Below, in pieces: positions 4,128 to 30,223 of a stretch of 64,000 bases of DNA. The translations under genes were made by a program, and so were the position numbers. How positions within the stretch are numbered: the first letter of the stretch is position 1; each line of letters starts with the position of its first letter. A model generated the notes under the pieces. That model was not told the origin of the DNA. It was given only the letters and a program-made list of their open reading frames with translations, and did not search any database. The stretch is taken from the NCBI GenBank assembly GCA_017643495.1, contig JAEPNK010000001.1:1407623-1471622 (forward strand), in the 5' to 3' direction. The DNA is from Rhizobiaceae bacterium. Its GTDB lineage: Bacteria; Pseudomonadota; Alphaproteobacteria; Rhizobiales; Rhizobiaceae.

Positions 4128-4577
4128 ATGGAGAACCCACACACTAAAAACGATTCTGGCCTGAACCAGTCAGAAATCTATCTTGAACTTACATCGGAAG
4201 TGATCGCGGCATATGTCGCGAACAATCCGGTATCCACCACTGAACTCCCTTCGCTTATCGGGGAGGTTCATGCAGCTCTGGCGAAAGCGGGCGGGCAGGA
4301 AGACAAGGCCAGCGAGGTAGCTGCAAAGCCCGCTGTTCCGGTAAAAAAATCCGTCACTGATGATTACATTGTCTGCCTTGAGGATGGCAAAAAATTCAAG
4401 TCCCTGAAACGCCATCTTCGCAGTCACTACGATCTGTCACCGGAAGAGTACCGCGAGAAATGGGGGCTTCCGGTCGACTATCCCATGGTAGCACCAAACT
4501 ACGCAAAGGCCCGCTCTGCACTCGCCCGGAAAATGGGCCTTGGCAGAAAACCGGGAACAAAAATCAAGAAGAAGTGA
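4128..4577 (+). CDS. mucR: MucR/Ros-family zinc-finger transcriptional regulator
   Basis: The 149-residue protein ends in the family's signature: a prokaryotic zinc finger starting VCLEDGKKFKSLKRHLRSH, with one Cys and paired His, followed by the MTPEEYR-type helix (LSPEEYREKWGL) and a strongly basic tail rich in Lys. MucR and Ros are nucleoid-associated-like regulators that bind AT-rich, T-A-step DNA and control exopolysaccharide, motility, virulence and cell-cycle genes in Rhizobiales. Length and architecture are normal. The N-terminal half carries the oligomerisation region. The upstream gap is long and AT-rich, consistent with self-repression. MucR can also silence acquired DNA, which is relevant with a GTA regulator pair next door. 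Confidence 0.92.
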   Translation: MENPHTKNDSGLNQSEIYLELTSEVIAAYVANNPVSTTELPSLIGEVHAALAKAGGQEDKASEVAAKPAVPVKKSVTDDYIVCLEDGKKFKSLKRHLRSHYDLSPEEYREKWGLPVDYPMVAPNYAKARSALARKMGLGRKPGTKIKKK

Positions 4578-4937: not shown

Positions 4938-5101
4938 GAACCTGAAGAGAACAGTCGCCCTTTCAGCTGCGGGGTGGATTGGTGTGCGCCGAATTAATTT
5001 CTGAGTGATGCACAAGGCATTGAAATAATTGCATAATAATCGGGATGTAGGTACGTCTCAGAAAAATAGATTTCCACATGTACTTCCATATTTTCTAAAC
5101 T

Positions 5102-5115
5102 AGGAATAAATTCCT
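5102..5115. promoter_or_regulatory. 14-bp palindrome upstream of the gafY-like gene
   Basis: AGGAATAAATTCCT has perfect 6-bp arms (AGGAAT/ATTCCT) around AA. It lies 21 bp before the preferred start of the HTH gene. The reverse complement, AGGAATTTATTCCT, matches 15573-15586 at 13 of 14 positions, where the copy overlaps the -35 box of the GTA promoter. A shared operator for the GTA regulator and its target is an inference. Confidence 0.45.
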
Positions 5116-5136
5116 TTAATGTGTGGGAGGTCAGGA

Positions 5137-5598
5137 ATGCTCGCTAACCGAAGTTGCAGGATAAATCATGCCGGGGAAAACACCCGGAACCGAAATGCGA
5201 AGAACCTGAAAGACGGTATTTCGCCGACACGTCCGACCGGCATTTGTTCCCTGAACAGCGCTTCAAAAAGACTGTTGGCAAAATTCGTCAACCAGATGGT
5301 GGCATCCGCTTTCCAACTTTCCGGTGAGAGGTTGTTGCGACATGACCGGGGGAATGCAAAGGCTGCGCGTGCCCGGCAAGTTTCGGTTTATCTGATGCAC
5401 ACCTGTCTCTCACTCACACTGACCGAAATTGCTCGTGTCTATGGGAAGGACAGGACCACCATCGGTCATGGTTGCCGAGTGGTTGAGGATCTCCGGGATA
5501 CACCGGCCTTTGATGATCGCATCATCGAACTCGAGCAGATGGTTCAAACCGTCCTGGCCTTGACCGGCCACCACAAAATGCCGGGAGAAGTCAAATGA
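5137..5598 (+). CDS. gafY: DnaA-domain-IV-like HTH protein, probable GTA activator GafY
   Basis: From ATG 5137, preceded by a strong GGGAGG ribosome site, the protein has 153 residues; an in-frame ATG at 5119 has no such site. The second half resembles the DNA-binding domain IV of DnaA: a helix VSVYLMH, then LTEIARVYGKDRTTIGHGCR, where DRTTIGHG parallels the DnaA signature DHTTVLHA. There is no AAA+ ATPase domain, so it is not an initiator. The stop overlaps the start of the next gene (ATGA), which encodes a DUF6456 protein. In Rhodobacter the GTA activator GafA joins such a DnaA-like part to a DUF6456-like part, and in Caulobacter the two parts are separate proteins, GafY and GafZ. I infer this is GafY, the DNA-binding activator of the cluster at 15.6-30 kb. 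Confidence 0.68.
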   Translation: MLANRSCRINHAGENTRNRNAKNLKDGISPTRPTGICSLNSASKRLLAKFVNQMVASAFQLSGERLLRHDRGNAKAARARQVSVYLMHTCLSLTLTEIARVYGKDRTTIGHGCRVVEDLRDTPAFDDRIIELEQMVQTVLALTGHHKMPGEVK

Positions 5599-6428
5599 CC
5601 GACCGGCATGAAGCGATGGAATTTCTGCGACACAAAAAACGCTTGTTGAAACTGCTCAACCGGCATTCGGTGGATGGTGTTGAGTTTGAAATGCAAGCAA
5701 ACAAGCTGAACCTGAATGACGGCACGCAGAGCCACAGCTTTGATGAGGATCTTTTACGCCAACTCCAGTCATCCAATGCCGTACTTGTATGCAAAAACCG
5801 CTTGCGCATACTTCCGCGTGGTTTGGCAGAGTTGAAGAAACTGCTGCAACCAGAATACGAAGCGTCTCTTAGAAAAACCGTACCTGAGCGCAAGTTGATG
5901 ACATCTGCGGCGAAACATTCGGGTGCAGATCAGAATGTCATGAAGAATGTAAACGAGTCCCCGTTATCGAGGCTGTTCCACCGCAGGCATCGTGATGGAA
6001 CAACGTATATTACCTTGTCACAATTCGAAGCCGGTGAACGCATTCGCAAGGACTTTGAAAAGGGTGGCTTGCAACCCAGAATATCGGCAATGCTGGAAAC
6101 TTCTGTCGGGTCAATCGGTGGCAAAGGAGGGCATGGCGCATGCGACATTACCGATTTTACGCTTGATGCGCGTAACAGGGTACGGCAGGCAATTGAGCGA
6201 CTGGGGCCGGAGCTTTCCGGAGTCGTGCTCGATGTATGCTGTTTTCTCAAAGGTCTGGAGCTTGTTGAGCGCGAACGCAGTTGGCCACCGAGGTCGGCTA
6301 AACTTATGCTTCGAACCGGTTTGTCGATACTGGCGCGTCACTACGGCCTGGAAGCAACTTCAGACAACCGGAATTCAAAATCCCGTCATTGGGGCACGGA
6401 TGATTATCGGCCGGTCCTTCCTGCCTGA
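5595..6428 (+). CDS. gafZ: DUF6456 protein, probable GTA regulator/anti-terminator GafZ
   Basis: The 277-residue protein is translationally coupled to the HTH gene by a 4-bp ATGA overlap. The N-terminal third is basic and looks like a winged-helix region (DLLRQLQSSNAVLVCKNRLR, then a GLAELKKLL helix). The C-terminal part (about residues 125-265) is the DUF6456 domain, with SQFEAGERIRKDFEKGGLQP and the conserved VCCFLKGLELVERERSWPPR segment followed by a tyrosine-ending helix (LSILARHYG). This matches the C-terminal half of Rhodobacter GafA. In Caulobacter the corresponding protein, GafZ, is reported to ride with RNA polymerase and Nus factors and let it pass terminators in the GTA cluster. 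The two intrinsic terminators in the cluster here would give such an activity something to do. Confidence 0.7.
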   Translation: MTDRHEAMEFLRHKKRLLKLLNRHSVDGVEFEMQANKLNLNDGTQSHSFDEDLLRQLQSSNAVLVCKNRLRILPRGLAELKKLLQPEYEASLRKTVPERKLMTSAAKHSGADQNVMKNVNESPLSRLFHRRHRDGTTYITLSQFEAGERIRKDFEKGGLQPRISAMLETSVGSIGGKGGHGACDITDFTLDARNRVRQAIERLGPELSGVVLDVCCFLKGLELVERERSWPPRSAKLMLRTGLSILARHYGLEATSDNRNSKSRHWGTDDYRPVLPA

Positions 6429-6433
6429 TATTC

Positions 6434-6850
6434 TTAGGCAGCAAGGGCACTGCGTGCGTCGGACTTGATACGTTCAACCAGGGCCTTGAGCCCGTTGGAG
6501 CGTTGTGGAGTTATGTGTTCGGAAAGGTCGATCTGGTCGAATATCGCCTTTTCGTCCTGTTTGAGGATGCTTGAGGCGGTTTTCCCGGAGAATATGGCAA
6601 AGGCTACAGCAATCAGACCGCTAACAATGTGTGCATCCGATGCTCCGCGAAACGTCAGTACGGGATCGTCGCCTTCGCCCTTGCTGGAAATGACCCAGAC
6701 CTGGCTGACACAGCCCTGAACCTTGTTTTCGCGAGTCTGTGCTTCTGGAGGCAAGGGCTCCAGATCGTTTCCAAGTTCGATCAGGTACTTGTAACGGTCG
6801 TCCCAGTCTTCCAGAAACTGAAAATTTTCGATGATTTCGTCTATATCCAT
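6434..6850 (-). CDS. sufE: SufE family cysteine desulfurase activator
   Basis: The 138-residue protein is a full-length SufE. It begins with the IIENFQFLEDWDDRYKYLIELG helix pattern and carries the sulfur-accepting Cys47 in VQGCVSQVW, followed by the family's GASDAHIVSGLIAV segment. SufE takes persulfide sulfur from the desulfurase SufS and passes it to the SufBCD scaffold for Fe-S cluster assembly in the cytoplasm. No other suf gene is in the window, which is usual for this gene in Rhizobiales, where it sits apart from the main suf operon and next to a DUF5330 gene, as here. It converges on the gafZ-like gene with only 5 bp between stops. Confidence 0.93.
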   Translation of the reverse strand: MDIDEIIENFQFLEDWDDRYKYLIELGNDLEPLPPEAQTRENKVQGCVSQVWVISSKGEGDDPVLTFRGASDAHIVSGLIAVAFAIFSGKTASSILKQDEKAIFDQIDLSEHITPQRSNGLKALVERIKSDARSALAA

Positions 6851-15571: not shown

Positions 15572-15572
15572 T

Positions 15573-15586
15573 AGGAATTTATTCTT
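15573..15586. promoter_or_regulatory. Copy of the gafY-upstream palindrome at the GTA promoter
   Basis: AGGAATTTATTCTT differs at one base from the reverse complement of the perfect palindrome at 5102-5115. Its last two bases are the first two of the -35 hexamer TTGACA. A protein bound here would touch RNA polymerase at the -35 region, either as activator or as repressor. Confidence 0.42.
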
Positions 15587-15613
15587 GACACCGAAACGGT
15601 CTTGAGGTAGGTT
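15585..15613 (+). promoter_or_regulatory. Sigma-70-type promoter of the GTA cluster
   Basis: A perfect -35 hexamer TTGACA (15585-15590) is separated by exactly 17 bp from TAGGTT (15608-15613), four of six matches to TATAAT. Transcription would start near 15620. It is the only good promoter between the YcgN-type gene and the first GTA gene. Confidence 0.6.
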
Positions 15614-15619
15614 CTTTAT

Positions 15620-15716
15620 ATGGTCGAAGAAGTGCGGCAAAACATGACGTGCTTTGACAGGCCTTCATGATATCTCAACAAACCCATTGTCGGCTTTGGT
15701 CGGCAGTGGGTTTTTT
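15620..15716 (+). ncRNA. Candidate GTA leader transcript / terminated small RNA
   Basis: A transcript begun at the promoter above would be about 97 nt before it reaches the intrinsic terminator. It holds a 16-codon frame (15620-15670) whose ATG sits at the predicted start site, so it would be leaderless. The RNA could be a stand-alone sRNA, an attenuated leader that needs anti-termination, or both. No known sRNA family was recognised. Confidence 0.4.
15681..15716 (+). terminator. Intrinsic terminator in the GTA leader
   Basis: The arm AACCCATTGTCGG (15681-15693) pairs with 15700-15712 through about 12-13 base pairs, including G-U wobbles, around a 6-nt loop. Six T residues (15711-15716) follow. 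It lies between the promoter and the first GTA gene, so the structural genes should be off unless polymerase reads through. Confidence 0.75.
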
Positions 15717-15743
15717 CATGCCGGTAATTGAATGGAGCCAGGT

Positions 15744-16082
15744 TTGAACGACAGGCTGGAAAACAGCAGCGAACGGGATTTTGAAAGGGCATTCAAGGCG
15801 CTTCGTGTTCGCTGTTTTTCTGAACTTGAACGGCTGGACAGCCAGATGGAACAGGAAAATGCAAATGGTGAACAGCGCCTCAAATATCTCGGCGGGTACC
15901 TGAAAACACTTCAGGGCATAGAAGAAATGGCAAAACGGCTGCGGGATGAGCGTGACGGCGAAAACGACAGGGGAATCGACGTGGTGGCTTTCCGCCAGCA
16001 GCTTGAGAGCCAGATTGCAAAACTTGTCGACAGTGACATTGCGTCGGCGGTTTCTGGAAGCCCAGGACCCGGCGACAATTGA
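15744..16082 (+). CDS. GTA gp1-like small terminase candidate
   Basis: The protein has 112 residues from TTG 15744, which follows a GGAGCCAGG ribosome site; an ATG at 15732 gives four more residues but lacks a site. It is hydrophilic, charged and almost wholly helical, with a probable coiled coil at residues 20-75 (RAFKALRVRCFSELERLDSQ onward). It has no match I recognise, but its place just before the large terminase is that of RcGTA orfg1, which encodes the small terminase TerS. In GTAs this subunit has lost specific packaging-site recognition, fitting random packaging. Its 3' end overlaps the large terminase gene. Confidence 0.62.
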   Translation: MNDRLENSSERDFERAFKALRVRCFSELERLDSQMEQENANGEQRLKYLGGYLKTLQGIEEMAKRLRDERDGENDRGIDVVAFRQQLESQIAKLVDSDIASAVSGSPGPGDN

Positions 16083-17316
16083 CCGGTTGTGGCGTGACTG
16101 GCCGCTTTGGGCAAGGCTTAACCAGCGACCACCGCTCAGCGATTGGCGAACCTGGCTTCTGCTTGGTGGCCGTGGCGCGGGCAAGACGCGAACCGGAGCG
16201 GAATGGCTGAAAGGCGTTGCTCTTGCTGACCCGCATCATCCCGGCAATGCCGCGGGCCGGATCGCGTTGATTGGCACGAATTATGATGATGCCCGCGACG
16301 TCATGGTCGAGGGCGAGTCGGGCTTGCTTGCCATACATGGTAAGGCGGAGCGACCAGCCTGGTATCCTTCGCGGCGGGAACTCGAGTGGTCGAATGGAAC
16401 GATTGGCAAGCTGTTTTCGTCAGGCGATCCGGAAGGTATCAGGGGAAGCCAGTTTGGTGCCGCATGGGCTGATGAACTTTGCAAATGGCGGTATCCGTCG
16501 GCGACCTGGGACATGCTTCAGTTTGCGTTGCGGCTGGGTGATAGCCCGAGGCAGGTGGTGACGACGACGCCGAAACCGCTGAAACTGTTGAAAACCCTGA
16601 TGGAAGACCCGGCAACCGTGACCGTGAAGGTAACAACGCGGGAGAACGCGGATAATCTGGCTGCCGGTTTTCTCGACTATGTTGAGGGCATTTATGGCGG
16701 CACCCGTCTTGGCCGGCAGGAACTGGATGGCGAAATAATCGAGGCTCGCGAAGATGCACTGTGGAACCATGATGCGATAGAGCAAGCCCGAACCCGTCAC
16801 CAGCCTGATATCGAAAGAATTGTGATTGCTGTCGACCCGCCTGCAGGTTCAAGCCGCAGTTCTGCTGCCTGTGGCATTATCGGTGCAGGGATCGCAGCCG
16901 ACGGGATCTGTTATGTATTGGCTGACCGTACCATATCGAAAGCAACACCCGACCGTTGGGGGAGGGAAGTGGTCAGTCTGTTCAAAACGCTGCAAGCCGA
17001 CTTGATTATCGCCGAGGTTAACCAGGGTGGTGACATGGTAACAAGCGTAATGCGCACGATAGAGCCAAACCTGCCTGTGCGTGCGGTGAGGGCATCGCGG
17101 GGCAAATGGACAAGAGCGGAACCGGTTGCGCTTTTGTATGAGCGTGGCCTTGTTCGCCATGCAGGGCATTTCGCCGAACTTGAAGACCAGATGTGTGCCA
17201 TGGGAGCGGATGGCAGCGCTGACGGCGTTTCGCCGGATCGTGTGGATGCACTGGTCTGGGCGATAACGGAACTGGCGCTGGTTCGCCGTGGAACACCACG
17301 CGTTCGCCAGCCCTAG
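16033..17316 (+). CDS. GTA large terminase (TerL, gp2)
   Basis: The protein motors DNA into the prohead and cuts it. The ATPase half has Walker A GGRGAGKT and a Walker B region AAWADELCKW. The nuclease half has the acidic residues of an RNase H fold in IAVDPPAGSS, IIAEVNQGGDMV and DRVDALVWAITEL. From GTG 16033 it has 427 residues; this start overlaps the gp1 gene by 50 bp. An ATG at 15946 would add 29 residues that mirror the gp1 frame, so I prefer the shorter form. The conserved part starts near RDWPLWARLNQRPP. The family is typical of HK97-like phages and RcGTA. A 24-bp gap separates it from the portal gene. Confidence 0.9.
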   Translation: MTLRRRFLEAQDPATIDRLWRDWPLWARLNQRPPLSDWRTWLLLGGRGAGKTRTGAEWLKGVALADPHHPGNAAGRIALIGTNYDDARDVMVEGESGLLAIHGKAERPAWYPSRRELEWSNGTIGKLFSSGDPEGIRGSQFGAAWADELCKWRYPSATWDMLQFALRLGDSPRQVVTTTPKPLKLLKTLMEDPATVTVKVTTRENADNLAAGFLDYVEGIYGGTRLGRQELDGEIIEAREDALWNHDAIEQARTRHQPDIERIVIAVDPPAGSSRSSAACGIIGAGIAADGICYVLADRTISKATPDRWGREVVSLFKTLQADLIIAEVNQGGDMVTSVMRTIEPNLPVRAVRASRGKWTRAEPVALLYERGLVRHAGHFAELEDQMCAMGADGSADGVSPDRVDALVWAITELALVRRGTPRVRQP

Positions 17317-17340: not shown

Positions 17341-18540
17341 ATGTACCCATTTTTTCAATGGCTGAGCCGATCAGCCAAACGATCGCCTGTTGCAGAAACG
17401 AAACAGGCCAATGCCGGGCTTGTCGCCTTCCACTCAGCCGGCACGGCAACCTGGTCCGATCTGGGCGGTGATGGCTATGCGCGCAACGGCTTCTGTCGAA
17501 ACCCGGTCGTTTACCGTTGTGTACGGATGATCAGTGAAGCGGCTGCCAGCCTCCCGATGCAGGTGCAGGAGGGTCGCATTCAATCCGATGAACACCCGGC
17601 GCTCGAATTGCTGGCCCGCCCGAATGAACGTCAGTCCGGACCGCAACTCATGGACGCGCTTTACGGCCATTTGCTGATCTCTGGGAATGCCTATCTGCAC
17701 CGAATCAGGATTGATGATGAAGACCGTGAATTGCACGTGCTGGACCCGGCGCGAACGTCTGCCGTTCTGGATGATCACGGCTGGCCGGTCGCTTATGAGT
17801 ACCGCTTCGGAAGCAGGCAGCACCGCTATGACGCGACGGGGCCGGCAGCTGAGGTCTTGCATCTCTCACTTTTCAATCCGGTCGGCGAGGTAAACGGACT
17901 TTCGCCGCTCGCTCCTGCCCACATGGCGCTTGACATTCACAACGCAGCGAGCGTCTGGAACAAGGCATTGCTGGATAATTCGGCCCGTCCTTCGGGTGCG
18001 CTCGTTTATGCCGCCAGCTCCGGCGACAACCTGACAGAAGAACAGTTCGACCGGCTGAAAAGCGAACTCGAGGATGGATACACGGGCGCGACCCGTGCCG
18101 GACGACCGATGCTGCTTGAAGGCGGGCTGGACTGGAAGGCGATGGGCTTCAGCCCGCGTGACATGGATTTTCTGCAGGCAAAGAACGGTGCCGCGCGCGA
18201 GATTGCGCTCGCCTTCGGTGTTCCCCCGATGCTGCTCGGCATACCCGGTGACAATACCTATTCGAACTACCAGGAGGCGAACCGTGCTTTCTGGCGACAG
18301 ACAGTTCTGCCGCTCGCAACCCGTATTGTCTGTGAAATCGGAAACTGGGTCTCGCCTCCGGTCAGAGATGCATTTTCACTCGCCATCAATACAGACCATG
18401 TCGAGGCGCTGGCTCCCGATCGCGAAGCACTTTGGGCTCGCATCGGTGCAGCTGACTTCCTGACTGAGGATGAAAAGCGTGAGGCACTCGGATTTACCCG
18501 CTTTGATGATGAAACCGGAAGAGGTGATTGCGATGTCTGA
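17341..18540 (+). CDS. GTA portal protein (gp3)
   Basis: The 399-residue protein is an HK97-family portal, the dodecameric ring at one capsid vertex through which DNA enters and to which the tail joins. Recognisable blocks are CVRMISEAAASLPMQVQEG near residue 60, ARPNERQSGPQLMDALYGHL, the stem region and the GVPPMLLGIPGDNTYSNYQEANRAFW stretch typical of the crown side; the C-terminal FLTEDEKREALGF also fits. Length is normal for RcGTA gp3. The stop overlaps the start of the DUF6107 gene by 8 bp. Confidence 0.93.
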   Translation: MYPFFQWLSRSAKRSPVAETKQANAGLVAFHSAGTATWSDLGGDGYARNGFCRNPVVYRCVRMISEAAASLPMQVQEGRIQSDEHPALELLARPNERQSGPQLMDALYGHLLISGNAYLHRIRIDDEDRELHVLDPARTSAVLDDHGWPVAYEYRFGSRQHRYDATGPAAEVLHLSLFNPVGEVNGLSPLAPAHMALDIHNAASVWNKALLDNSARPSGALVYAASSGDNLTEEQFDRLKSELEDGYTGATRAGRPMLLEGGLDWKAMGFSPRDMDFLQAKNGAAREIALAFGVPPMLLGIPGDNTYSNYQEANRAFWRQTVLPLATRIVCEIGNWVSPPVRDAFSLAINTDHVEALAPDREALWARIGAADFLTEDEKREALGFTRFDDETGRGDCDV

Positions 18541-18904
18541 TCCCGGCATGGGGCACATTCAGGAGGTGCCGGAAGCCGTCTGGCTTTTCGTCGCCAAGGC
18601 GATTGGCGCGGTTTCGGGGTCAGCCATCTCTCTTGCCTATCTGGTCCCCCGCAACGGTCGTGAAGCCTACCTGCGTTTTTGTGTGGGCATTACGGTCGGC
18701 ATGATCTTCGGCACGTCCGCAGGCTGGAAGATCGCCGACTATCTCGAAATTGGCCACCGTCTCTCAAATGTCGAGATCGCCCTTTCTGGAGGAGCTTTCG
18801 CGAGCCTTAGCGCCTGGTGGGCGCTTGGTGTGATTTCCCGCTTTGCCCAGCGCATTGGCTCTTTCGATGCGGCAACAAAAACTAAAGGAAAAGGCGACCA
18901 ATGA
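18533..18904 (+). CDS. DUF6107 family protein (GTA orfg3.5 position)
   Basis: From ATG 18533, behind an AGAGGTG ribosome site, the protein has 123 residues. It has two or three predicted membrane helices: LFVAKAIGAVSGSAISLAYL, then FCVGITVGMIFGTSAGWKI, then LSGGAFASLSAWWALGVI. The C-terminus is basic. DUF6107 proteins sit between portal and protease in GTAs of Rhizobiales, the slot of orfg3.5 in Rhodobacter. The role is unknown; a membrane protein inside a head gene block could be a holin-like factor or could tether assembling proheads to the membrane. Both ends overlap neighbours (8 bp with the portal gene, ATGA with the protease gene), so it is translated with them. Confidence 0.78.
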   Translation: MSDPGMGHIQEVPEAVWLFVAKAIGAVSGSAISLAYLVPRNGREAYLRFCVGITVGMIFGTSAGWKIADYLEIGHRLSNVEIALSGGAFASLSAWWALGVISRFAQRIGSFDAATKTKGKGDQ

Positions 18905-19596
18905 AGGCAAAACGCGATCCGTTCGAGCGTGAGACGAAATTTATGCCCGTCGATATCGCCGACGTGAAACTGGACGGCAGGTTTTCAGGTTATGCCAGCC
19001 TCTTTGGCAAGGTAGATCAGGGCAATGATGCAGTCATGAAAGGGGCATTCTCGGCCTCGCTCAGCGGCCGCAAGCCGTCCTCTGTCCGGATGCTCTTTCA
19101 GCACGATCCGGATCAGCCGATTGGCGTCTGGCATGAAATTCACGAAGATCAAAAAGGACTTTACGTATCGGGACAGATCACCCGGGGCGTACGCCGTAGC
19201 GAAGAAATACTGGAATTGATGCGCTCCGGGGCCATCGATGGCCTGTCGATAGGATTTCGCACCAAGCGGGCCCGGACCAACCCGGCAACCGGCGTAAGAC
19301 ACATTCTGGCGGCTGATCTCTGGGAAATATCAGTCGTCACGTTTCCGCTCCTCACAGAGGCACGGATCGAGACAGTCAAATCGACCAACATCAGCGACAG
19401 GATACCTTCCCTACGCCAATTCGAACGATGGCTCACGCGGGATGCGGGGCTTTCAAGGCGCGATGCACGCCGGTTTCTGACCGGTGGCTACGACGCCATG
19501 ACATGCAAGCAGGACGCTGCAGGTCTTGAACCAAACCACCTTGCGCAAACGATCCGCAAGGCAACCCGAACATTCAGGACAAGGAAATACGCATGA
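18901..19596 (+). CDS. HK97-family prohead protease (gp4)
   Basis: The 231-residue protein is a serine protease of the S78-type prohead family. The catalytic His lies in FQHDPDQPIGVW and the Ser in DGLSIGFRTKRA; the LWEISVVTFPLL strand is also diagnostic. It matures the capsid by removing the N-terminal delta domain of the major capsid protein before DNA packaging. The C-terminal 50 residues (RQFERWLTRDAGLSRRDARRF) are an extension common to alphaproteobacterial GTAs and phages. The gene overlaps both neighbours by ATGA, so protease, membrane protein and capsid are coupled. Confidence 0.93.
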   Translation: MKAKRDPFERETKFMPVDIADVKLDGRFSGYASLFGKVDQGNDAVMKGAFSASLSGRKPSSVRMLFQHDPDQPIGVWHEIHEDQKGLYVSGQITRGVRRSEEILELMRSGAIDGLSIGFRTKRARTNPATGVRHILAADLWEISVVTFPLLTEARIETVKSTNISDRIPSLRQFERWLTRDAGLSRRDARRFLTGGYDAMTCKQDAAGLEPNHLAQTIRKATRTFRTRKYA

Positions 19597-20861
19597 GAAA
19601 CAAGTCACATCAAACGGCCCGTGCGCCGGAGGCCAAGGCGGCGACCGGCAACGCACAGGAGGTTGCCGAATCCTTCGAGGAATTCATGGAAGCCTTCGAA
19701 GCTTTCAAGCAAGCCAATGACGAGCGGTTGGAACAGGTTGAATCCCGCATTGGTGCGGATACGGTCACCGTCGAAAAAATGAACCGGATCAGCCGGGCGC
19801 TCGATGAACAGAAATCCCGAATGGATGGCTTCGTTCTGAAGGGACAGCGCCCTGGCCTCACTGGAAGTGCTGCCCTTACTGTCGCAGGAATCGAGCACAA
19901 ACAGGCTTTCAATGCCTATGTACGCAGCGGCAACGAGCACGGTCTGCGCCAGCACGAACAAAAAGCGCTTTCCTACGGCTCCGATCCTGACGGCGGGTTT
20001 CTGGTGCCAGACGAAACGGCAGCCGAGATTGGCAGGCGGCTCTCACTTGCTTCCCCGATCCGCTCGATAGCCGGTGTGCAGACGGTATCGTCTGCCGTCT
20101 ACAAAAAGCCTTTCGCGGTATCCGGCCCGCAAACCGGTTGGGCTTCGGAAACGCAGGCGCGCCCGGAAACGGATTCTCCGACACTTGCCGAACTGTCCTT
20201 CCCGACCATGGAGCTCTACGCCATGCCCGCCGCGACATCCTCACTGCTTGAGGATGCGGCGATCGATATCGATGCCTGGATTGCGAGCGAAGTCGAGACC
20301 GCGTTCGCTGAGCAGGAAAGTACCGCCTTCGTCAATGGTGATGGCGTAAACAAGCCACGCGGCTTTCTCGATCACACTATAGTCGATGAAGATACCTGGT
20401 CGTGGGGCAATCTCGGCTATGTTGCGACCGGTGCAGATGGTGCATTCGCAGGAAGCGATCCGTCGGACACGCTGGTTGACACAATCTATGCGCTGAAGGC
20501 CGGTTATCGGCAGAATGCGAAATGGGTCATGAACCGCAAGACCCAGGCCGAAGTACGCAAACTCAAGGATGCTGACGGCAATTATCTCTGGCAACCGCCT
20601 GCTGGTGCGGGCCAGGCGGCGAGCCTGATGGGCTTCGGCGTCGTGGAAGCCGAGGACATGCCGGATATCGCTACCGACACGACCGCGGTTGCATTCGGTG
20701 ACTTTGCCCGTGGCTATCTGATCGTCGACCGGGCTGGGGTTCGCGTGCTCCGCGATCCGTACTCAGCGAAACCTTATGTTCTGTTCTACACGACCAAACG
20801 TGTTGGCGGTGGGGTGCAGGATTTTGACGCGATCAAACTGGTCAAGTTCGGCACCTCGTAG
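19593..20861 (+). CDS. GTA major capsid protein (gp5)
   Basis: The 422-residue protein is an HK97-fold capsid subunit. Residues 1 to about 100 form the charged, coiled-coil delta domain (FEEFMEAFEAFKQANDERLE) that acts as a scaffold and is cut off; the mature part probably begins near TGSAALTVAGIEH. The core has the expected SYGSDPDGGFLVPDETAAEI opening, the VNGDGVNKPRGFL loop and the DFARGYLIVDRAGVRVLRD strand near the end. It is translated by ATGA overlap from the protease gene. An intrinsic terminator stands 35 bp after the stop, which would raise capsid mRNA over the downstream genes. Confidence 0.95.
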   Translation: MRNKSHQTARAPEAKAATGNAQEVAESFEEFMEAFEAFKQANDERLEQVESRIGADTVTVEKMNRISRALDEQKSRMDGFVLKGQRPGLTGSAALTVAGIEHKQAFNAYVRSGNEHGLRQHEQKALSYGSDPDGGFLVPDETAAEIGRRLSLASPIRSIAGVQTVSSAVYKKPFAVSGPQTGWASETQARPETDSPTLAELSFPTMELYAMPAATSSLLEDAAIDIDAWIASEVETAFAEQESTAFVNGDGVNKPRGFLDHTIVDEDTWSWGNLGYVATGADGAFAGSDPSDTLVDTIYALKAGYRQNAKWVMNRKTQAEVRKLKDADGNYLWQPPAGAGQAASLMGFGVVEAEDMPDIATDTTAVAFGDFARGYLIVDRAGVRVLRDPYSAKPYVLFYTTKRVGGGVQDFDAIKLVKFGTS

Positions 20862-20895
20862 GATGCCCCTCCCTCGTTCTGACGCGGGTGCCAGT

Positions 20896-20935
20896 AACGG
20901 CTCCATCCATACCGGATGGGGCCGTTTTCTTTTTT
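20896..20935 (+). terminator. Strong intrinsic terminator inside the GTA cluster
   Basis: A 13-bp stem (AACGGCTCCATCC at 20896-20908 with GGATGGGGCCGTT at 20914-20926, one G-U pair) has a 5-nt loop and is followed by TTCTTTTTT. It lies between the capsid gene and the connector gene, the largest internal gap of the cluster. All downstream tail genes depend on read-through, since no promoter is seen after it. Confidence 0.88.
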
Positions 20936-20949
20936 GAAAAGGGACAGGA

Positions 20950-21522
20950 ATGACAGTTACCACTATCACACCTCCGGCAAGCTTGCCTGTAACGCTTGCA
21001 CAGATGAAGCAGCATTTGCGGATCGATCACGATGCAGATGACACTTATCTGACCGAACTTGCCGATGCGGCGACGCGCCATGTTGAGGCAACGTCTGGTC
21101 ATGCGCTCATCGACCGGACATTACGACAGTATGTCGATCAATCAGATGTCAACAACCGCTGTGTGCAGATCTCAGCATGGCCAGTTCGTGCGATTGTTGC
21201 CGTGACAGCCTATGACAGACTCGGTGACCCTCTGCTGCTTGACGCCGCTGATAGTTCACTGAAATTGCAAGGCGGCAAGGCTTGCATATTCTTCGATGCC
21301 GGCGTCTCCGTAATCGACATGACCAACGGTCTGGAAGTCGATTTTCTGGCGGGTCATGGCGAAAGCGGGATCGATGTTCCCGCCAACATCATCCGGGCGA
21401 TCCTCGTGCTCATCGCGCACTGGTATGAATTTCGCGGAGTAATGACTGCTGGTGACGTGACCGGATTGATCCCGCAGGGGCTCGACAGGTTGCTGGCTCC
21501 GGTTCGGAGGGTGGCAGTATGA
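20950..21522 (+). CDS. GTA head-tail connector (gp6)
   Basis: The 190-residue protein belongs to the gp6-like head-tail connector family of HK97-type phages. The N-terminal helix pair LAQMKQHLRIDHDADDTYLT and the ATRHVEATSGHALIDRTLRQ segment are its signature; the C-terminal ANIIRAILVLIAHWYEFRGV helix completes the fold. It forms a ring under the portal and prepares the head for the tail. It is the first gene after the internal terminator, begins with a GGGACAGG ribosome site, and overlaps gp7 by ATGA. Confidence 0.9.
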   Translation: MTVTTITPPASLPVTLAQMKQHLRIDHDADDTYLTELADAATRHVEATSGHALIDRTLRQYVDQSDVNNRCVQISAWPVRAIVAVTAYDRLGDPLLLDAADSSLKLQGGKACIFFDAGVSVIDMTNGLEVDFLAGHGESGIDVPANIIRAILVLIAHWYEFRGVMTAGDVTGLIPQGLDRLLAPVRRVAV

Positions 21523-21854
21523 GCCGGGTTCGAATGCTTGATGCAGGCCGTTTCAACCGGCAGCTAAGTGTTGAAAACCCGGTTGAAACTGCTGATGGAA
21601 GTGGCGGGTTTTACAAGACCTACCAGGCGACTGATGCGGTCTGGGCTCATGTCTGTCCGGTTTCTGCTGATGCAAAGCTGCGTGCCAATACGCAAGAAAC
21701 AGACATTACGCACAAGGTGATCCTGCGGTTTCGGTCAGGGATAGGACCAACGAGTCGCTTCGTAACCGGTACGCGACGGTTCCATGTCGATACGGTTCGC
21801 GATCCGGACGAGACCGGCAGATATCTGGAATGTCTGGTGGTGGAGCGGTCATGA
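21519..21854 (+). CDS. GTA head closure / head-tail adaptor protein (gp7)
   Basis: The 111-residue, beta-rich protein fits the head closure family (SPP1 gp16-like, HK97 gp7). Diagnostic features are the opening MLDAGRFNRQLSVENPVE, the WAHVCPVSADAKLRAN strand and HKVILRFRSGIGPTSRFV. It plugs the connector and offers the docking face for the tail. It is joined by ATGA overlaps to gp6 upstream and to a 42-residue frame downstream. Confidence 0.9.
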   Translation: MSRVRMLDAGRFNRQLSVENPVETADGSGGFYKTYQATDAVWAHVCPVSADAKLRANTQETDITHKVILRFRSGIGPTSRFVTGTRRFHVDTVRDPDETGRYLECLVVERS

Positions 21855-21979
21855 GTAGAGTGTCGGTCACAATCACGCGGCTCGATCTGACGCGGCTTCT
21901 TAAGACTTTCGCAAAACCGGGATCCCGACCAGTAAAACGATCCGCCAAATCCGAGACCAAGCGGAGGCTGCCCCGATGA
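21851..21979 (+). CDS. 42-residue basic protein between gp7 and gp8
   Basis: A short frame is locked between gp7 and gp8 by ATGA overlaps on both sides, which argues for real translation. The product, opening MSRVSVTITRLDLTRLL and ending KRSAKSETKRRLPR, is very basic, with about 14 Lys or Arg residues in 42. In HK97-like phages a gp10-type neck protein sits at this place; the N-terminus here (VSVTITRLDLTRLL) loosely resembles the start of that family (V-V-GLDEL---L), so this could be a much shortened neck protein. It could also bind DNA. RcGTA has no annotated gene at this spot as far as I recall. Function unknown. Confidence 0.6.
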   Translation: MSRVSVTITRLDLTRLLKTFAKPGSRPVKRSAKSETKRRLPR

Positions 21980-22398
21980 CCCACGCTGCTCTTGCCTTGC
22001 AACAGGCAGTCTACCAAACGCTGGTGGACGATGATGATCTCACAATTTTACTTGGTGGGGCGAACGTACATGATGATGTGCCAAGGCAGGATAAACCACC
22101 TTACATCGTCTTCGCCGAAGCCACGCACTCAGACTGGAGTACAGGCACAGAAAAGGGCCTTGAACATTCCCTCGCAGTCGAAATCTGGTCCAGGGAGCGT
22201 GGCCGGAAACAAGTGCTAGACATTGCCGAAGCTGTGCAGGACACGCTCGCCAGTTTGCCGCAGCTTCTCGATAGCCATCACCTTGTGAACTTCACACACG
22301 AATTCACGGAAGTAACCCGTGACGAAGAGACAGGGTATTTTGTCGCCAAGGCAAACTTTCGGGCAGTAACCGAACCACTGCCCGTTATCCCGCAATAA
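21976..22398 (+). CDS. DUF3168 tail terminator protein (gp8)
   Basis: The 140-residue protein matches DUF3168, the tail terminator family that ends tail tube growth and joins tail to head. It has the opening ALALQQAVYQTLVDDDDLT, the DVPRQDKPPYIVFAEATHSD block and the closing FTEVTRDEETGYFVAKANFR strand. It starts inside an ATGA overlap with the 42-residue frame. Gene order and length match RcGTA orfg8. Confidence 0.9.
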   Translation: MTHAALALQQAVYQTLVDDDDLTILLGGANVHDDVPRQDKPPYIVFAEATHSDWSTGTEKGLEHSLAVEIWSRERGRKQVLDIAEAVQDTLASLPQLLDSHHLVNFTHEFTEVTRDEETGYFVAKANFRAVTEPLPVIPQ

Positions 22399-22419
22399 AA
22401 ACCGTTGGAAGGAAACGCC

Positions 22420-22833
22420 ATGGTCGCCCAGAAAGGCAAGGACCTCCTGTTGAAGATTGATCCGGACGGGAGCGGCTTCGTCACCGTTGCCGGATTGCGC
22501 GCGCGCCAGATTGCGCTGAATGCTGCAAGCGTTGATGTGACCGATTCCGAATCCGCCGGTCGCTGGCGCGAATTGCTGGCAGGCGCAGGGCTGAGACGGG
22601 CATCCCTGAGTGGCAGCGGTCTTTTCAAGGACGCCGCAAGCGATGAACTCGTTCGTGCCAATTTCTTCTCGGGAGCCATTGTGAATTGGCAGGTCATCGT
22701 GCCGGATTTCGGTACGCTTGCAGGCCCGTTCCAGATCGTGGCACTGGAATATGCCGGTCAGCACGATGGCGAGATCACGTTTGAGATCGCGCTTGAGTCT
22801 GCCGGTGAAATCACATTCACAGGTGCCGCATGA
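22420..22833 (+). CDS. Major tail protein, TP901-1 family (gp9)
   Basis: From ATG 22420, behind a GGAAGGAAA ribosome site, the protein has 137 residues. It is the tail tube subunit: it opens MVAQKGKDLLLKIDPDG and carries SVDVTDSESAGRWRELLAGA and the closing HDGEITFEIALESAGEITFT, all features of the TP901-1 major tail family. Stacked hexamers make the non-contractile tube around the tape measure. Its end overlaps the gp10 start by ATGA. Confidence 0.92.
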   Translation: MVAQKGKDLLLKIDPDGSGFVTVAGLRARQIALNAASVDVTDSESAGRWRELLAGAGLRRASLSGSGLFKDAASDELVRANFFSGAIVNWQVIVPDFGTLAGPFQIVALEYAGQHDGEITFEIALESAGEITFTGAA

Positions 22834-23162
22834 TGGTCAATCCGCAACGTGGCGAAATAGCTGCGGAACTCGACGGCAAGACCTGGACGCTGTGCCTGAC
22901 GCTCGGGGCGCTCGCCCATCTCGAGCAGGCATTGAAAGCGGATACCCTGTGCGGGCTTTCGGCCAAGTTTGCAAGTGGCAATCTTTCGGCTTCCGAATTG
23001 ATCAAGATCATCCATGCTGGCCTTCTGGGTGGTGGACATGACCTGAGCGAGAGCGAGGTCTCGCAGATGCGGGTTGAGAACGGAATTGGTGGCTATGTCG
23101 ATATCGCCGCCCGGCTCTTGACTGCGACCTTCACCCCGACACCTGAAAGCGGACGTTCGTGA
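22830..23162 (+). CDS. GTA gp10 tail assembly chaperone
   Basis: The 110-residue protein is of the gp10-type GTA family. The opening NPQRGEIAAELDGKTWTLCL followed by LGALAHLEQAL is diagnostic, and it resembles the first tail assembly chaperone of phages, which keeps tape measure protein soluble. The C-terminus is YVDIAARLLTATFTP plus a short polar tail. It is coupled by ATGA to gp9, and its stop overlaps the GTG start of the next frame, the place where many phages use a frameshift to make a longer chaperone. Confidence 0.85.
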   Translation: MMVNPQRGEIAAELDGKTWTLCLTLGALAHLEQALKADTLCGLSAKFASGNLSASELIKIIHAGLLGGGHDLSESEVSQMRVENGIGGYVDIAARLLTATFTPTPESGRS

Positions 23163-23386
23163 GTGAGGCCGAAGCTTGTATTCCGTGGGAGCGTTTGATG
23201 GCATTTGGCTTCGGGCAATTGCGTCTTGCCCCGGAGCACTTCTGGTCGATGACGCTGCGGGAAGTGGAAGCGGCCATCGCCAACGTTTGTGACAACGCTC
23301 ATCGGATTGGCGCTCCGGCGCGTCAGCGGTTCGAGGCCTTGATGCAGTCACATCCGGATACAGGCACATCGCCTCAACAGAATTAA
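23159..23386 (+). CDS. Rcc01693-type second tail chaperone (gp10.1)
   Basis: The 75-residue protein begins with GTG (23159), overlapping the gp10 stop. IPWERLMAFGFGQLRLAPEHFWSMTLREVEAA is the signature of the rcc01693/DUF2376 family, a tail assembly chaperone just ahead of the tape measure gene in RcGTA-type clusters. It has no membrane segment. The overlap geometry (GTGAGTGAG) permits normal coupling, and I see no clear slippery heptamer to support a frameshifted gp10 fusion. Confidence 0.87.
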   Translation: MSEAEACIPWERLMAFGFGQLRLAPEHFWSMTLREVEAAIANVCDNAHRIGAPARQRFEALMQSHPDTGTSPQQN

Positions 23387-23395
23387 GGAAATCCC

Positions 23396-23971
23396 ATGTT
23401 GAATGAGAAGGTAGTTGTTGGTGTCTCCGCTGACACAACCGGGTTTGATGCGGCGATGGAAAGCCTGACGGACGCAACGGAGCGCTTTGGTGAGGTATTC
23501 GCCTCGACCATCAGCCGCTCAATCCAGTCCGGAAAGAGTTTCGAGGATACATTGCGTTCGATCGGTAAACGATTTTCCGATTTGGCGTTGAAGAAGGCGC
23601 TGGACCCGGTCGAGAATTTATTTTCCGGCCTGTTAGGTTCGTTTGTCGGTGGCGGCAGTTTTCCTTCAGCCGGGTCCGGTGCAACCGGTGGAAGTGTATT
23701 GCCATTTGCAAAGGGTGGCGTTGTTTCATCACCGACCATGTTTGGCTTCGGCGAGCGTCTCGGCGTGATGGGTGAAGCGGGTGCGGAAGCGATCATGCCG
23801 CTGGCCCGTGGCAGCGACGGCCGTCTGGGGGTCGCTGCATCCGAGGGGGCCGCACCCATAAACGTCAATTTCAATATAGCGACACGCGATGCGGCGAGCT
23901 TCCGGAAATCGGAAGGCCAGGTCACGGCCATGCTCGCCCGTGCCGTGAGACGCGGACAGCGGGGGCTTTGA
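23396..23971 (+). CDS. Short tail tape measure protein (gp11)
   Basis: The 191-residue protein starts at ATG 23396 after an AAGGAA site. The N-terminal half is helical (DAAMESLTDATERFGEVFAS), a small hydrophobic, Gly-rich middle holds FSGLLGSFVGGGSFPSAG, and the end has the tape measure hallmark FGERLGVMGEAGAEAIMPLARG. In siphoviruses tail length scales with this protein at about 0.15 nm per residue, so the expected tail is very short, near 30 nm of measured length. This is the typical GTA form, much shorter than phage tape measures of over 700 residues. Confidence 0.88.
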   Translation: MLNEKVVVGVSADTTGFDAAMESLTDATERFGEVFASTISRSIQSGKSFEDTLRSIGKRFSDLALKKALDPVENLFSGLLGSFVGGGSFPSAGSGATGGSVLPFAKGGVVSSPTMFGFGERLGVMGEAGAEAIMPLARGSDGRLGVAASEGAAPINVNFNIATRDAASFRKSEGQVTAMLARAVRRGQRGL

Positions 23972-23975
23972 AGTA

Positions 23976-24623
23976 ATGTCTGTAATCAATTCGTTTCATG
24001 AAGTACGGTTTCCTGCCGATCTTGCACTGGGTGCAACCGGGGGGCCAGAACGGCGTACAGAAATCGTCACGCTTGGTTCGGGACGGGAGCAACGCAACAC
24101 TCGCTGGGCTCATTCCCGCCGTCGCTTCAACGCCGGATACGGCGTCAAAACGGTCGATGACCTGCATGCAGTCATCGCCTTTTTCGAGGAACGGCGAGGC
24201 AGGCTTTTCGGTTTCCGCTTTCGCGATCCGTTCGACTGGAAATCCTGCCCGCCGGGCCAGATCGTAACGCCGACTGATCAGTCAATCGGAACCGGTGACG
24301 GACAAGAGGCTGTTTTCCGGATCACAAAGCGCTACGGCAGTGATGAAACCGGCTATCTTCGCAACATTTCGAAACCTGTTGACGGCACGGTCATCGTGGC
24401 GGTCGACGGGCTACCGGTGCCTTCAAGCGATTATTCAGTTGACGAAACAACCGGGACGATAACCTTTCAGCCGGCTTCCATTCCCCCGGACAGTGCGAGC
24501 ATCACCTGCGGTTTCGAGTTCGATATTCCGGTCCGGTTCGACACCGATGAAATTGCGATGAACATGGGCAACTTTGAAGCTGGTGACATTCCTTCAATAC
24601 CATTGGTGGAATTGTTGTCATGA
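23976..24623 (+). CDS. DUF2460 distal tail protein (gp12)
   Basis: The 215-residue protein matches DUF2460, the distal tail ring that links tail tube to baseplate. The signature lies in NSFHEVRFPADLALGATGGP, the WAHSRRRFNAGYGVKTVDDL block and GFRFRDPFDWKS. It starts 4 bp after the tape measure stop and overlaps gp13 by ATGA. Length is normal for RcGTA gp12. Confidence 0.92.
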   Translation: MSVINSFHEVRFPADLALGATGGPERRTEIVTLGSGREQRNTRWAHSRRRFNAGYGVKTVDDLHAVIAFFEERRGRLFGFRFRDPFDWKSCPPGQIVTPTDQSIGTGDGQEAVFRITKRYGSDETGYLRNISKPVDGTVIVAVDGLPVPSSDYSVDETTGTITFQPASIPPDSASITCGFEFDIPVRFDTDEIAMNMGNFEAGDIPSIPLVELLS

Positions 24624-25510
24624 AACAGGTTCCCCAAGCATTCCGGGATCACCTTGAAGGTGAGGTGACGACACTGTGCCGCTGCTGGATCATTGAAACA
24701 GTGGCCGGAGAAAGGCTTGGCTTTACCGACCATGACCAGGATGTCAGCCTGGATGGTATTGTCTGCCAGAAACATGCCGGTGTTGAGTCCGGCAGTATCG
24801 AAGAACGAACGGGCCTCGATGTGAATTCGTCAGACATTTCAGGCGCGCTTCAGTCGGAGGCGATTTCCGCTGCGGATATCGAGGCTGGCAATTATGACCG
24901 GGCACGAGTCACGACCTGTCTCGTCAACTGGAGCCATCCGGAGGAATATTTCGTTGATCGTGTTTCACTGGTTGGCGAAATTGTGCGCCGGGACGGACAT
25001 TACACAATGGAGTTGCAGGGGCTGGCTGCAGAGCTTGACCAGACCACAGGAAGGCATTTCGCCAATCGGTGCCAGGCTGATCTTGGAGATACAGAATGCG
25101 GGGTGTCGCTGGTTGGCGAGCCAATGCTAGCAAGCGGAACCGTACTGGAAGTATTTTCTGGCGTGGTCTTGTCTGTTGCCGGTCTTGAAAGCCATGCCGC
25201 AGGCTGGTTCGGCGGCGGCAGGCTTGTTTGGCAGACTGGTGAAAGTGCTGGCAGGGCGATTGAAGTTGCAGAACATGTTCATCAGGGAAGCAAAACCCTT
25301 TTGCATCTTTGGCAGCCAATGTCGGAAGCCATTCAACCCGGTCATGGTTTCATGCTTACGGCAGGTTGTGACAAGTGCTTTTCTACCTGCAAGACGAAAT
25401 TTTACAATCACTTGAATTTTCGGGGTTTCCCGCACGTCCCGGGTAGCGACAAGGCACTCGCCGTTGCATCGGGTATGCAACGCTTCGATGGTGAACCGAT
25501 GGTTCCCTAG
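24620..25510 (+). CDS. DUF2163 baseplate hub protein (gp13)
   Basis: The 296-residue protein belongs to DUF2163, the RcGTA hub. The N-terminal block HLEGEVTTLCRCWIIETVAG and the central RVTTCLVNWSHPEEYF are typical. Conserved cysteines occur at 151 and 160 (CQADLGDTECGV) and at 250, 253 and 257 (GCDKCFSTC). The last cluster is followed by FNNFRGFP-like sequence (YNHLNFRGFPHVPGSD). The RcGTA hub has been described as holding an Fe-S cluster; the same spacing here suggests a bound cluster or zinc. It follows gp12 by ATGA overlap and precedes gp14 by 2 bp. Confidence 0.92.
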   Translation: MKQVPQAFRDHLEGEVTTLCRCWIIETVAGERLGFTDHDQDVSLDGIVCQKHAGVESGSIEERTGLDVNSSDISGALQSEAISAADIEAGNYDRARVTTCLVNWSHPEEYFVDRVSLVGEIVRRDGHYTMELQGLAAELDQTTGRHFANRCQADLGDTECGVSLVGEPMLASGTVLEVFSGVVLSVAGLESHAAGWFGGGRLVWQTGESAGRAIEVAEHVHQGSKTLLHLWQPMSEAIQPGHGFMLTAGCDKCFSTCKTKFYNHLNFRGFPHVPGSDKALAVASGMQRFDGEPMVP

Positions 25511-25512
25511 CG

Positions 25513-25962
25513 ATGGACGCATTGCAACAAGCGGTCATTGATGAAGCAAGGCGATGGCTCGGTACCCCTTACATGCATCAGGCATCAATGATCGGGCAGG
25601 GAGCAGACTGTATCGGCCTTGTTCGGGGAGTATGGCGGGCATTGCTTGGTCCTGAACCGCAAACCCTTCCTGCTTACAGCCCGGACTGGGGAGAGATCTC
25701 GGCACGTGAAGAAATGTTGACTGCCGCCCAAAGGTGGTTGGAGCCCTTGAGTATTGATGATGCCACAGGCGGGGATGTTGTCCTGTTTCGCTGGAAACAT
25801 GCCGCGCCCATCAAGCATGCCGGAATTTTGACCGGGGTCGACCACTTCATTCATGCCTATGAAAAGGCAGGGGTGGTTGAGAGCACGCTTGGTAGTCAGT
25901 GGCGGTCCCGCGTCGCTGCTGCCTTCCGTTTTCCACCATTCAAGGATCAGCCTGAACCATGA
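25513..25962 (+). CDS. NlpC/P60 family cell-wall peptidase (gp14)
   Basis: The 149-residue enzyme has the NlpC/P60 papain-like fold: catalytic Cys in QGADCIGLVRGVW and His in KHAGILTGVDHFIHAYE. In RcGTA the equivalent sits at the tail tip and opens host peptidoglycan so that DNA can pass. It has no signal peptide. It is also the only obvious muralytic enzyme in this cluster, so it may double as the endolysin, or a separate endolysin may lie elsewhere. It overlaps the gp15 gene by ATGA. Confidence 0.92.
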   Translation: MDALQQAVIDEARRWLGTPYMHQASMIGQGADCIGLVRGVWRALLGPEPQTLPAYSPDWGEISAREEMLTAAQRWLEPLSIDDATGGDVVLFRWKHAAPIKHAGILTGVDHFIHAYEKAGVVESTLGSQWRSRVAAAFRFPPFKDQPEP

Positions 25963-29787: not shown

Positions 29788-29994
29788 ATGGTTGATGAGA
29801 AAAACTGGTATGAATCACGGACCATATGGGGTGCACTCATGGCGGTAACTGCGTCATTTGCAGGAATGGCAGGAGTAACGATAGACACCATGACCCAGGG
29901 GGAGCTTGTTGAAGCGATAATTCAGTTGGTGGGCGGTGCAGGCGCCTTGTTGGCAGTTTACGGCCGGCTGGCAGCTACCAACATCATTCGCTGA
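29788..29994 (+). CDS. Holin-like small membrane protein
   Basis: The 68-residue protein has two hydrophobic helices: TIWGALMAVTASFAGMAGVTI (residues 12-32) and AIIQLVGGAGALLAVYGRLA (43-62), with a short polar loop between. The opening WYESRTIWGAL resembles small putative holins of alphaproteobacterial phages. Holins pierce the inner membrane so that cell-wall enzymes can act and particles escape. It has a good AAGGAGA ribosome site (29778-29784), lies 25 bp after gp15 and starts a three-gene block with the spanin-like frames. Known RcGTA keeps its holin elsewhere in the genome, so this placement is notable. Confidence 0.68.
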   Translation: MVDEKNWYESRTIWGALMAVTASFAGMAGVTIDTMTQGELVEAIIQLVGGAGALLAVYGRLAATNIIR

Positions 29995-29998
29995 CGCA

Positions 29999-30223
29999 AT
30001 GCTCAGCTTTCTGGAAAGCCTGTTTCGCTTGGCCGGTCTGCTGGTTCGCCGGCTTGGCAATTATCATCTCAGGCGCGAGCAGGAGCGGTTATCCGCCATT
30101 GAGAAAAAGGCTCGTCATTATGACAGAATGGAAAAAGGGCTTCGGGCGCGTCATCGCGCTCGCGATGCTGTGGCTTCCGGTCGCTTGTCAGACGACCGAT
30201 ACCGGCGTGGAAGAGGAGACTGA
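29999..30223 (+). CDS. Putative inner-membrane spanin (Rz-like)
   Basis: The 74-residue frame starts 4 bp after the holin-like gene. It has a weakly hydrophobic N-terminus (MLSFLESLFRLAGLLV), then a charged helix likely to form a coiled coil (RREQERLSAIEKKARHYDRMEKGL), and a basic, polar end. A membrane anchor plus a periplasmic coiled coil is the i-spanin plan, though the anchor is only about 15 residues. A lipoprotein frame is nested in it in another phase, the classic Rz/Rz1 arrangement. No sequence-level match is claimed; the case rests on layout. Confidence 0.5.
   Translation: MLSFLESLFRLAGLLVRRLGNYHLRREQERLSAIEKKARHYDRMEKGLRARHRARDAVASGRLSDDRYRRGRGD

Follow-up and report, generated by a model that had tools for sequence, protein, structure and literature searches.

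The stretch of DNA analysed here (the window, 64,000 nucleotides) contains two overlapping genes on the forward strand, gafY and gafZ. The gafY gene (5137-5598) encodes a lone DnaA domain IV helix-turn-helix (HTH) protein of 153 amino acids. Its longest open reading frame (ORF) starts at 5119 (5119-5598, forward strand), but 5137, with GGGAGG directly before it, is the better start. The gafZ gene (5595-6428) encodes a DUF6456 protein of 277 amino acids and overlaps gafY at the ATGA at 5595-5598. In Pfam, gafY matched Bac_DnaA_C (E 1.1e-12, 48.3 bits against a cut-off of 31.5) and no other family, leaving a DnaA domain IV HTH without the ATPase, while gafZ matched DUF6456 (PF20057; E 9e-40, 136.3 bits against a cut-off of 26.3). 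A profile of gafY made from 28 relatives found DnaA domain IV chains in the PDB (1j1v, E 3.3e-19). These results bear out the initial annotation, which had described a DnaA domain IV-like HTH gene lacking the ATPase and joined by an ATGA overlap to a DUF6456 gene.

A profile of gafZ made from 29 relatives had no match at E 1 among the PDB sequences. The AlphaFold2 model of gafZ had a mean pLDDT of 75.8 overall and of about 97 at residues 191-250, which form a C-terminal helical domain. The best Foldseek match to this model had an E of 0.18 and was not significant. Sigma-factor domain 4 chains recurred among the first 50 Foldseek matches (3hug: TMt 0.63-0.65, probability 0.47-0.72), with no match significant. 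A sigma-like HTH has been predicted for GafZ by Tran and Le (PMC11150451).

The 30 DUF6456 loci retrieved by our genome search all have a DnaA-type HTH ORF directly upstream, which in L007 is short. Two loci of the same order from a separate draw, L070 and L080, had no HTH ORF upstream of DUF6456. Given the 30 paired loci, and despite L070 and L080, we rejected the idea that the HTH and DUF6456 genes are neighbours by chance. In the window's own genome, DUF6456 and the window terminase gave a single match each. DUF6456 was detected in one of 14 control genomes, that of Caulobacter vibrioides, the species of GafZ. In the family phrog_31864 (316 positions), the HTH matches near the family start (E 1.4e-6) and the end of DUF6456 near the family end (E 5.5e-4); this is perhaps a fused GafA-like phage protein.

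The pair is flanked by mucR upstream (4128-4577, forward strand; ROS_MUCR, E 2.6e-51) and sufE downstream (6434-6850, reverse strand; SufE, E 5.4e-43). This arrangement is identical to that of the split gafA of Hyphomicrobiales, described by Sherlock and Fogg in 2022 as mucR - DnaA-like - gafA - sufE (PMC9638019). The pair itself is already known, as a member of this published split-gafA set, and the window is assigned to Hyphomicrobiales on the basis of this shared gene order. A split gafA was also described in Agrobacterium (Fogg 2019). Gozzi et al. (PMC9632790) counted 759 homologues of GafZ in 1,331 genomes, 494 of them next to a GafY, and Kogay and Zhaxybayeva (2022) reported gafA in 196 of 208 genomes. 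The earlier proposal that the two genes are likely a GafY/GafZ pair is supported by their domains, by the order of these domains and by the published neighbourhood; the likeness to GafA, GafY and GafZ is established by domain and not by sequence alignment to the named proteins. A sequence deposited as "Bacteriophage sp." (L218, MW462191.1) has a window-like series of genes, namely a transcriptional regulator, a DNA-binding protein, a DUF6456 match, a sulfur acceptor protein and a kinase. It looks like a fragment of a bacterial chromosome.

The GTA cluster and its linkage to gafYZ

The first ORF of the downstream cluster (15732-16082, forward strand, 116 amino acids) was denoted small terminase by position only; it has tblastn matches in sister genomes, and domain searches found no family above cut-off. 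It is followed by the large terminase (15946-17316, forward strand; Terminase_6N, E 1.1e-31) and by the remaining head-tail genes from portal to megatron (17341-29762, forward strand). The cluster contains terminase, portal, DUF6107, protease, capsid, connector, tail genes, NlpC/P60 and the megatron (25959-29762), which matched NCBIfam GTA_megatron at 1586.5 bits (cut-off 800). A head-tail cluster running from terminase to megatron is of the RcGTA type. This confirmed that such a cluster lies downstream of the pair on the same strand, with its predicted promoter about 9.2 kb past the end of gafZ. A small gene after the megatron (29936-30223) has a weak holin-like match (E 0.0089), below cut-off.

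We searched 61 genomes of the order to which the window's own genome belongs (hereafter, the order). DUF6456 was found in 50 of the 61 and the terminase, at E 1e-30, in 47, with both present in 45. With second, weaker places in a genome dropped, the two were on one contig in 32 of these 45 genomes, 28 of them within 34 kb. The cluster was downstream of gafYZ, co-directional and within 34 kb in at least 26 of the 45 genomes, a lower bound because in 13 of the 45 the two are split over different contigs, some of them short. The distance was 9.4-13.1 kb in 17 genomes. The initial annotation had suggested that such linkage in Hyphomicrobiales would provide a compact model of GTA control. The linkage does hold widely in the order, in 26 of the 45 genomes with both, but the claim was overstated, since the split genes and their immediate neighbourhood had been published before.

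We compared 20 stretches, mostly from linked genomes, with the window. Ten intervening genes keep their order and strand and are largely collinear: sufE, DUF5330, a histidine kinase, a peptidoglycan-binding gene, DUF1491, DUF2336, DUF1254, DUF1214, PBP1a and CxxCxxCC. Some of these, DUF5330 and DUF2336 foremost, were undetected in the more distant of the compared genomes. From the collinear ten-gene block, the linkage looks ancestral for the order. The linkage is not itself evidence of control, because the inherited block holds ten other genes. In a draw from the class, both genes were within about 30 kb on one contig in 14 genomes, one of which (G218) is of the same order; gafZ and terminase are 0.8 kb apart in G168, and G144 and G145 rest on weak DUF6456 matches. 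In 6 of 14 IMG/VR loci, genes for terminase, portal, protease and capsid follow gafZ at a distance of 0.2-2.2 kb. The openly accessible literature searched gave no prior description of the linkage of gafYZ to the GTA cluster. The accessible text on split gafA (PMC9638019) likewise held no mention of this linkage or of shared operators.

Two genomes, G007 and G009 (97 and 99% complete), have an intact gafYZ together with the palindrome and the S24 gene described below. Neither has a terminase match at E 1e-30 or an RcGTA-like capsid, although a 38% match to the capsid occurs elsewhere in G009. That gafYZ is kept without the cluster suggests that the pair may have other targets. In the stretches compared from these genomes (L035 and L036), no RcGTA genes follow CxxCxxCC. 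In three other genomes, each from a different genus, a single open ORF of 812-836 amino acids is all that is left of the GTA cluster (L031:676-3114, L033:14251-16761 and L034:6956-9436). This ORF joins the N-terminal part of the terminase in frame with the C-terminal half of the megatron at nearly the same junction, with the promoter kept, and the three genomes have no RcGTA capsid match. These fusions may represent a recurrent deletion, a kept fusion protein or an assembly error. In G010 (L032:12945-15030), terminase 9-231 runs into the portal and then, by eye, into a fragment of the C-terminal end of the megatron. G051 has two copies of the GTA promoter pattern beyond its terminase (G051:C13:354770 and 361096), one of them 274 nt ahead of the capsid gene, and its cluster appears to be split or rearranged.

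The predicted cluster promoter and its leader

Conservation places a predicted GTA promoter at 15585-15613 (forward strand), with a -35 of TTGACA (15585-15590), a 17-nt spacer and a -10 of TAGGTT (15608-15613). A generic sigma-70 promoter scan of the window did not flag it. We compared the regions upstream of the terminase by eye, in 8 and then 16 loci, and found a common core with fixed spacing. This core consists of TTGACA, an imperfect inverted repeat CACCG-N3-CGGTG, a -10 close to TAGGGT and, in the transcribed part, an element resembling GTCGGAAAAGTGCGG. In the window, the early-transcribed element is GTCGAAGAAGTGCGG (15623-15637, forward strand), which keeps its spacing in the compared loci and is part of the composite pattern.

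The composite pattern from the 16 loci was run on 80 genomes, of which 64 belong to the order and 16 do not. It matched exactly at 17 places: 16 were 307-1662 nt before a terminase on the same strand, and the remaining one was in G003, which has no terminase match. Among the 14 matches with one mismatch, 11 were 0.3-1.7 kb before a terminase; the rest were two in G051 and one in G183, which is outside the order. With two mismatches, 4 of 25 were near a terminase, and the reversed control gave 37 matches at up to two mismatches over the same 80 genomes. The promoter was thus found in 31 of the 47 genomes with a terminase, 16 of which had been used to build the pattern and 15 of which were new. 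No match was found within 2.5 kb in 19 of the 50 genomes of the order with a terminase (16 of the 47, plus G118, G218 and G298). None of six composite matches outside the order was near a terminase. A loose pattern, TTGACACCGNNACGGTG with two mismatches, was indistinct from its reversed control in many genomes, among the matches listed. Conservation of the predicted promoter extends across much of the order.

The Caulobacter GafZ-binding element (ZBE) maps between the -35 and the -10 (PMC11150451). At the same position, the window has an imperfect inverted repeat, CACCG-AAA-CGGTC (15589-15601, 4/5 pairs), a candidate GafZ-binding element. All five pairs are formed in 4 of 21 promoters and two of five in G027 and G024, in a set fetched with a pattern that already held part of the repeat. 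In G048 the repeat is CAGCG-CAA-CGCTG, with a change on both sides. No DnaA-like box common to the GTA promoters was found, 7-of-9 matches occurring only in G000 and G012 of 16.

A terminator-like leader hairpin with a T-run lies before the first ORF (15680-15716, forward strand; -23.6 kcal/mol, z -5.95). It has 15 pairs followed by T and was missed by a generic terminator scan. An Rfam search of the leader gave one chance-level match far below cut-off. We compared 16 leaders with 12 shuffles each, too few for a p-value. The hairpin with its T-run beat all 12 shuffles in six (G000, G011, G005, G010, G015 and G048) and all but one in G008 and G034, and it was weak or missing in the other 8 of the 16. 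The leader hairpin is a feature of the window genome and some relatives, not a rule.

The palindrome at both promoters and a candidate repressor

A RogA-type palindrome, TAGGAATAAATTCCTT (5101-5116), ends 20 nt before the gafY ATG and contains an exact GGAA-N4-TTCC at 5103-5114. A DnaA-box-like sequence, ATTTCCACA (5070-5078, forward strand), lies 31 nt before it, start to start, and is a candidate GafY or DnaA box. It agrees at 7 of 9 positions with the DnaA box TTATCCACA. By raw count, a similar box precedes the palindrome by 27-38 nt in 11 of 19 gafY promoters. The second RogA-type palindrome, TAGGAATTTATTCTTG (15572-15587, 10/12), overlaps the -35 of the GTA promoter. Gozzi et al. (PMC9632790) reported binding of Caulobacter RogA to fragments that span the gafYZ core promoter, which contains two GGAA-N4-TTCC inverted repeats; the window gafY promoter has one exact copy versus two in Caulobacter.

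We searched for the extended palindrome TAGGAA-N4-TTCCTA at 10/12 or more within 450 nt before the HTH, dropping one duplicate locus and one window copy and using first-order Markov resamplings as shuffles. It was found before gafY in 28 of 37 loci of the order (300 shuffles: mean 0.49, maximum 3), and in 21 of 29 when the window's own genus was counted once (shuffles 0.29, maximum 2). In other orders it was found in 3 of 17 loci and absent in 14 (shuffles 0.18, maximum 3). These shuffles overstate independence because the loci share ancestry. At the other end, the palindrome was in register at the -35 of 17 of 21 GTA promoters among 30 loci and in none of the 9 chance pattern matches; the pattern that fetched the 30 loci did not contain the palindrome. 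Ten of the 21 promoters were newly examined, and eight of these ten had it. Five more GTA promoters with the palindrome are those of G019, G025, G033, G018 and G048; it is missing at those of G054, G060, G037 and G056.

The window has three palindromes at 10/12 or more versus 0.55 in 20 shuffles, and we therefore set aside rarity of the word as an argument. What counts is where the palindrome lies and that it is conserved. A further palindrome, AAGGAATAAATTCTTA (L083:1499-1514), lies shortly before a Y-family DNA polymerase gene. The polymerase was rejected as a further repressor target since the site is not kept in G001.

The window's own genome encodes three S24 proteins, namely LexA (L091), L092 and L093. 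Relatives of L092 were found in 50 of the 61 genomes at E 1e-10 and in 48 at E 1e-31. The palindrome (at 10/12 or more) precedes the L092-type gene in 16 of 30 loci (shuffles 0.15, maximum 2), and in 5 of 19 outside the window's own genus (shuffles 0.10, maximum 1). The shorter core GGAA-N4-TTCC, at 7/8 or more, precedes it in 28 of 30 (shuffles 2.7, maximum 9). An Ala-Gly site, Ser146 and Lys183, presumably the cleavage residues by analogy with LexA, are present in all 30 best relatives of L092. Caulobacter RogA, an HTH and S24 protein, is reported to lack key cleavage residues, and because L092 keeps them we did not file it as RogA. L092 may be a counterpart of RogA that is still competent for cleavage, or else a distinct repressor that shares the site. 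L093, with a weaker, partial S24 match, could be a RogA-like protein.

Proposed control of the GTA cluster and comparison with known systems

We consider it probable (about 0.7) that these two genes are the GafY and GafZ of this order and that they control the RcGTA-type cluster, which lies 10 kb further downstream. The domains, the gene order, the conservation of the promoter and the shared palindrome form the sequence basis of a circuit whose binding events, repression, antitermination and direction of control we infer as follows. A RogA-type repressor would hold both gafYZ and the structural promoter shut, the latter directly, judging from the position of the palindrome over the consensus -35. 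When the repressor leaves, gafYZ would be made. By homology to Caulobacter, GafZ would load at the inverted repeat between the -35 and the -10, ride with RNA polymerase and carry it past terminators, among them the leader hairpin of the window genome. GafY, which in Caulobacter is known to bind RpoD and, with IHF, GTA promoters, would help initiation at gafYZ and at other GTA promoters.

The linkage could also be frozen synteny without regulatory meaning, with gafYZ and the GTA simply sharing one host block. This is compatible with the circuit above and is somewhat probable in its own right: the ten genes between are largely collinear in the compared loci, and G032, G053, G031, G020 and G027, in which gafYZ and the cluster are widely separated or lie on separate contigs, keep the GTA promoter. 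However, gafZ also lies close to the terminase in other lineages, where the surrounding genes differ, hinting at an older tie. It is unlikely that the pair mainly controls other genes and that the GTA is one losable target. The retention of gafYZ, palindrome and S24 gene in G007 and G009 would fit this, as would the 18 sites that Caulobacter GafY binds besides gafYZ and the GTA cluster, but recent GTA loss would give the same picture, and G005, G010, G015 and G019 appear to be caught part-way. A role of the HTH protein as a regulator of DnaA and replication agrees with the DnaA fold of gafY and with the earlier name hdaB for CCNA_01111. We regard it as very improbable given the regular pairing with DUF6456 and the linkage to the GTA, and Gozzi et al. 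(PMC9632790) re-assigned CCNA_01111.

The wiring could instead be that of Caulobacter, with the repressor only on gafYZ, while GafY, GafZ or some other activator would bind the palindrome at the structural promoter. Enrichment of RogA in C. crescentus was confined to gafYZ and CCNA_02002 (PMC9632790), and the window site at 15572 is imperfect (10/12). However, the palindrome matches the RogA operator, overlaps the -35 as operators do, and is also found before the S24 repressor gene in 16 of 30 loci against 0.15 in shuffles. In addition, the -35 here is consensus versus AATCAT in Caulobacter. We consider this arrangement rather unlikely. Direct repression of both promoters can be taken further, if only tentatively. 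A cleavage-competent LexA/cI-like repressor may double-lock the GTA by sitting on its own promoter, on gafYZ and on the structural -35. DNA damage, speculatively, would then free the activator and the structural genes together, with GafZ then required to get past the leader terminator, in a prophage-like, SOS-coupled manner. The Caulobacter RogA, reported to lack key cleavage residues, was found at gafYZ and not at the structural promoter, unlike in this double lock.

This is probably a known kind of system with new wiring. This analysis adds the inherited linkage, the conserved cluster promoter and the palindrome common to both promoters. It is the promoter code that deserves further attention. 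A conserved operator shared by the two promoters suggests a candidate repressor, and with it a testable GTA-trigger signal for a large bacterial order, and the conserved promoter offers an exact site at which GafZ loading and antitermination could be tested outside Caulobacter. The late promoter of lambda Q has a terminator in its leader, where the window has a terminator-like hairpin. The binding element of lambda Q lies between the -35 and the -10 (PMC11150451), where the window has its candidate GafZ element. The comparison concerns how the systems work only; according to the same source, GafZ resembles Q neither in sequence nor in structure. The GafA of Rhodobacter capsulatus (PMC6363796, PMC9638019) corresponds to the pair by domain in its two halves, which are fused in Rhodobacter and split in the window. 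GafY and GafZ of Caulobacter crescentus (PMC9632790, PMC11150451) likewise are two genes, DnaA domain IV and DUF6456, with a RogA operator at gafYZ; the window has a RogA-type operator there too, and a candidate GafZ element between the -35 and the -10. The window differs from Caulobacter in its consensus TTGACA, the RogA-type palindrome on the structural promoter, the terminator-like hairpin before the first gene and the linked loci.
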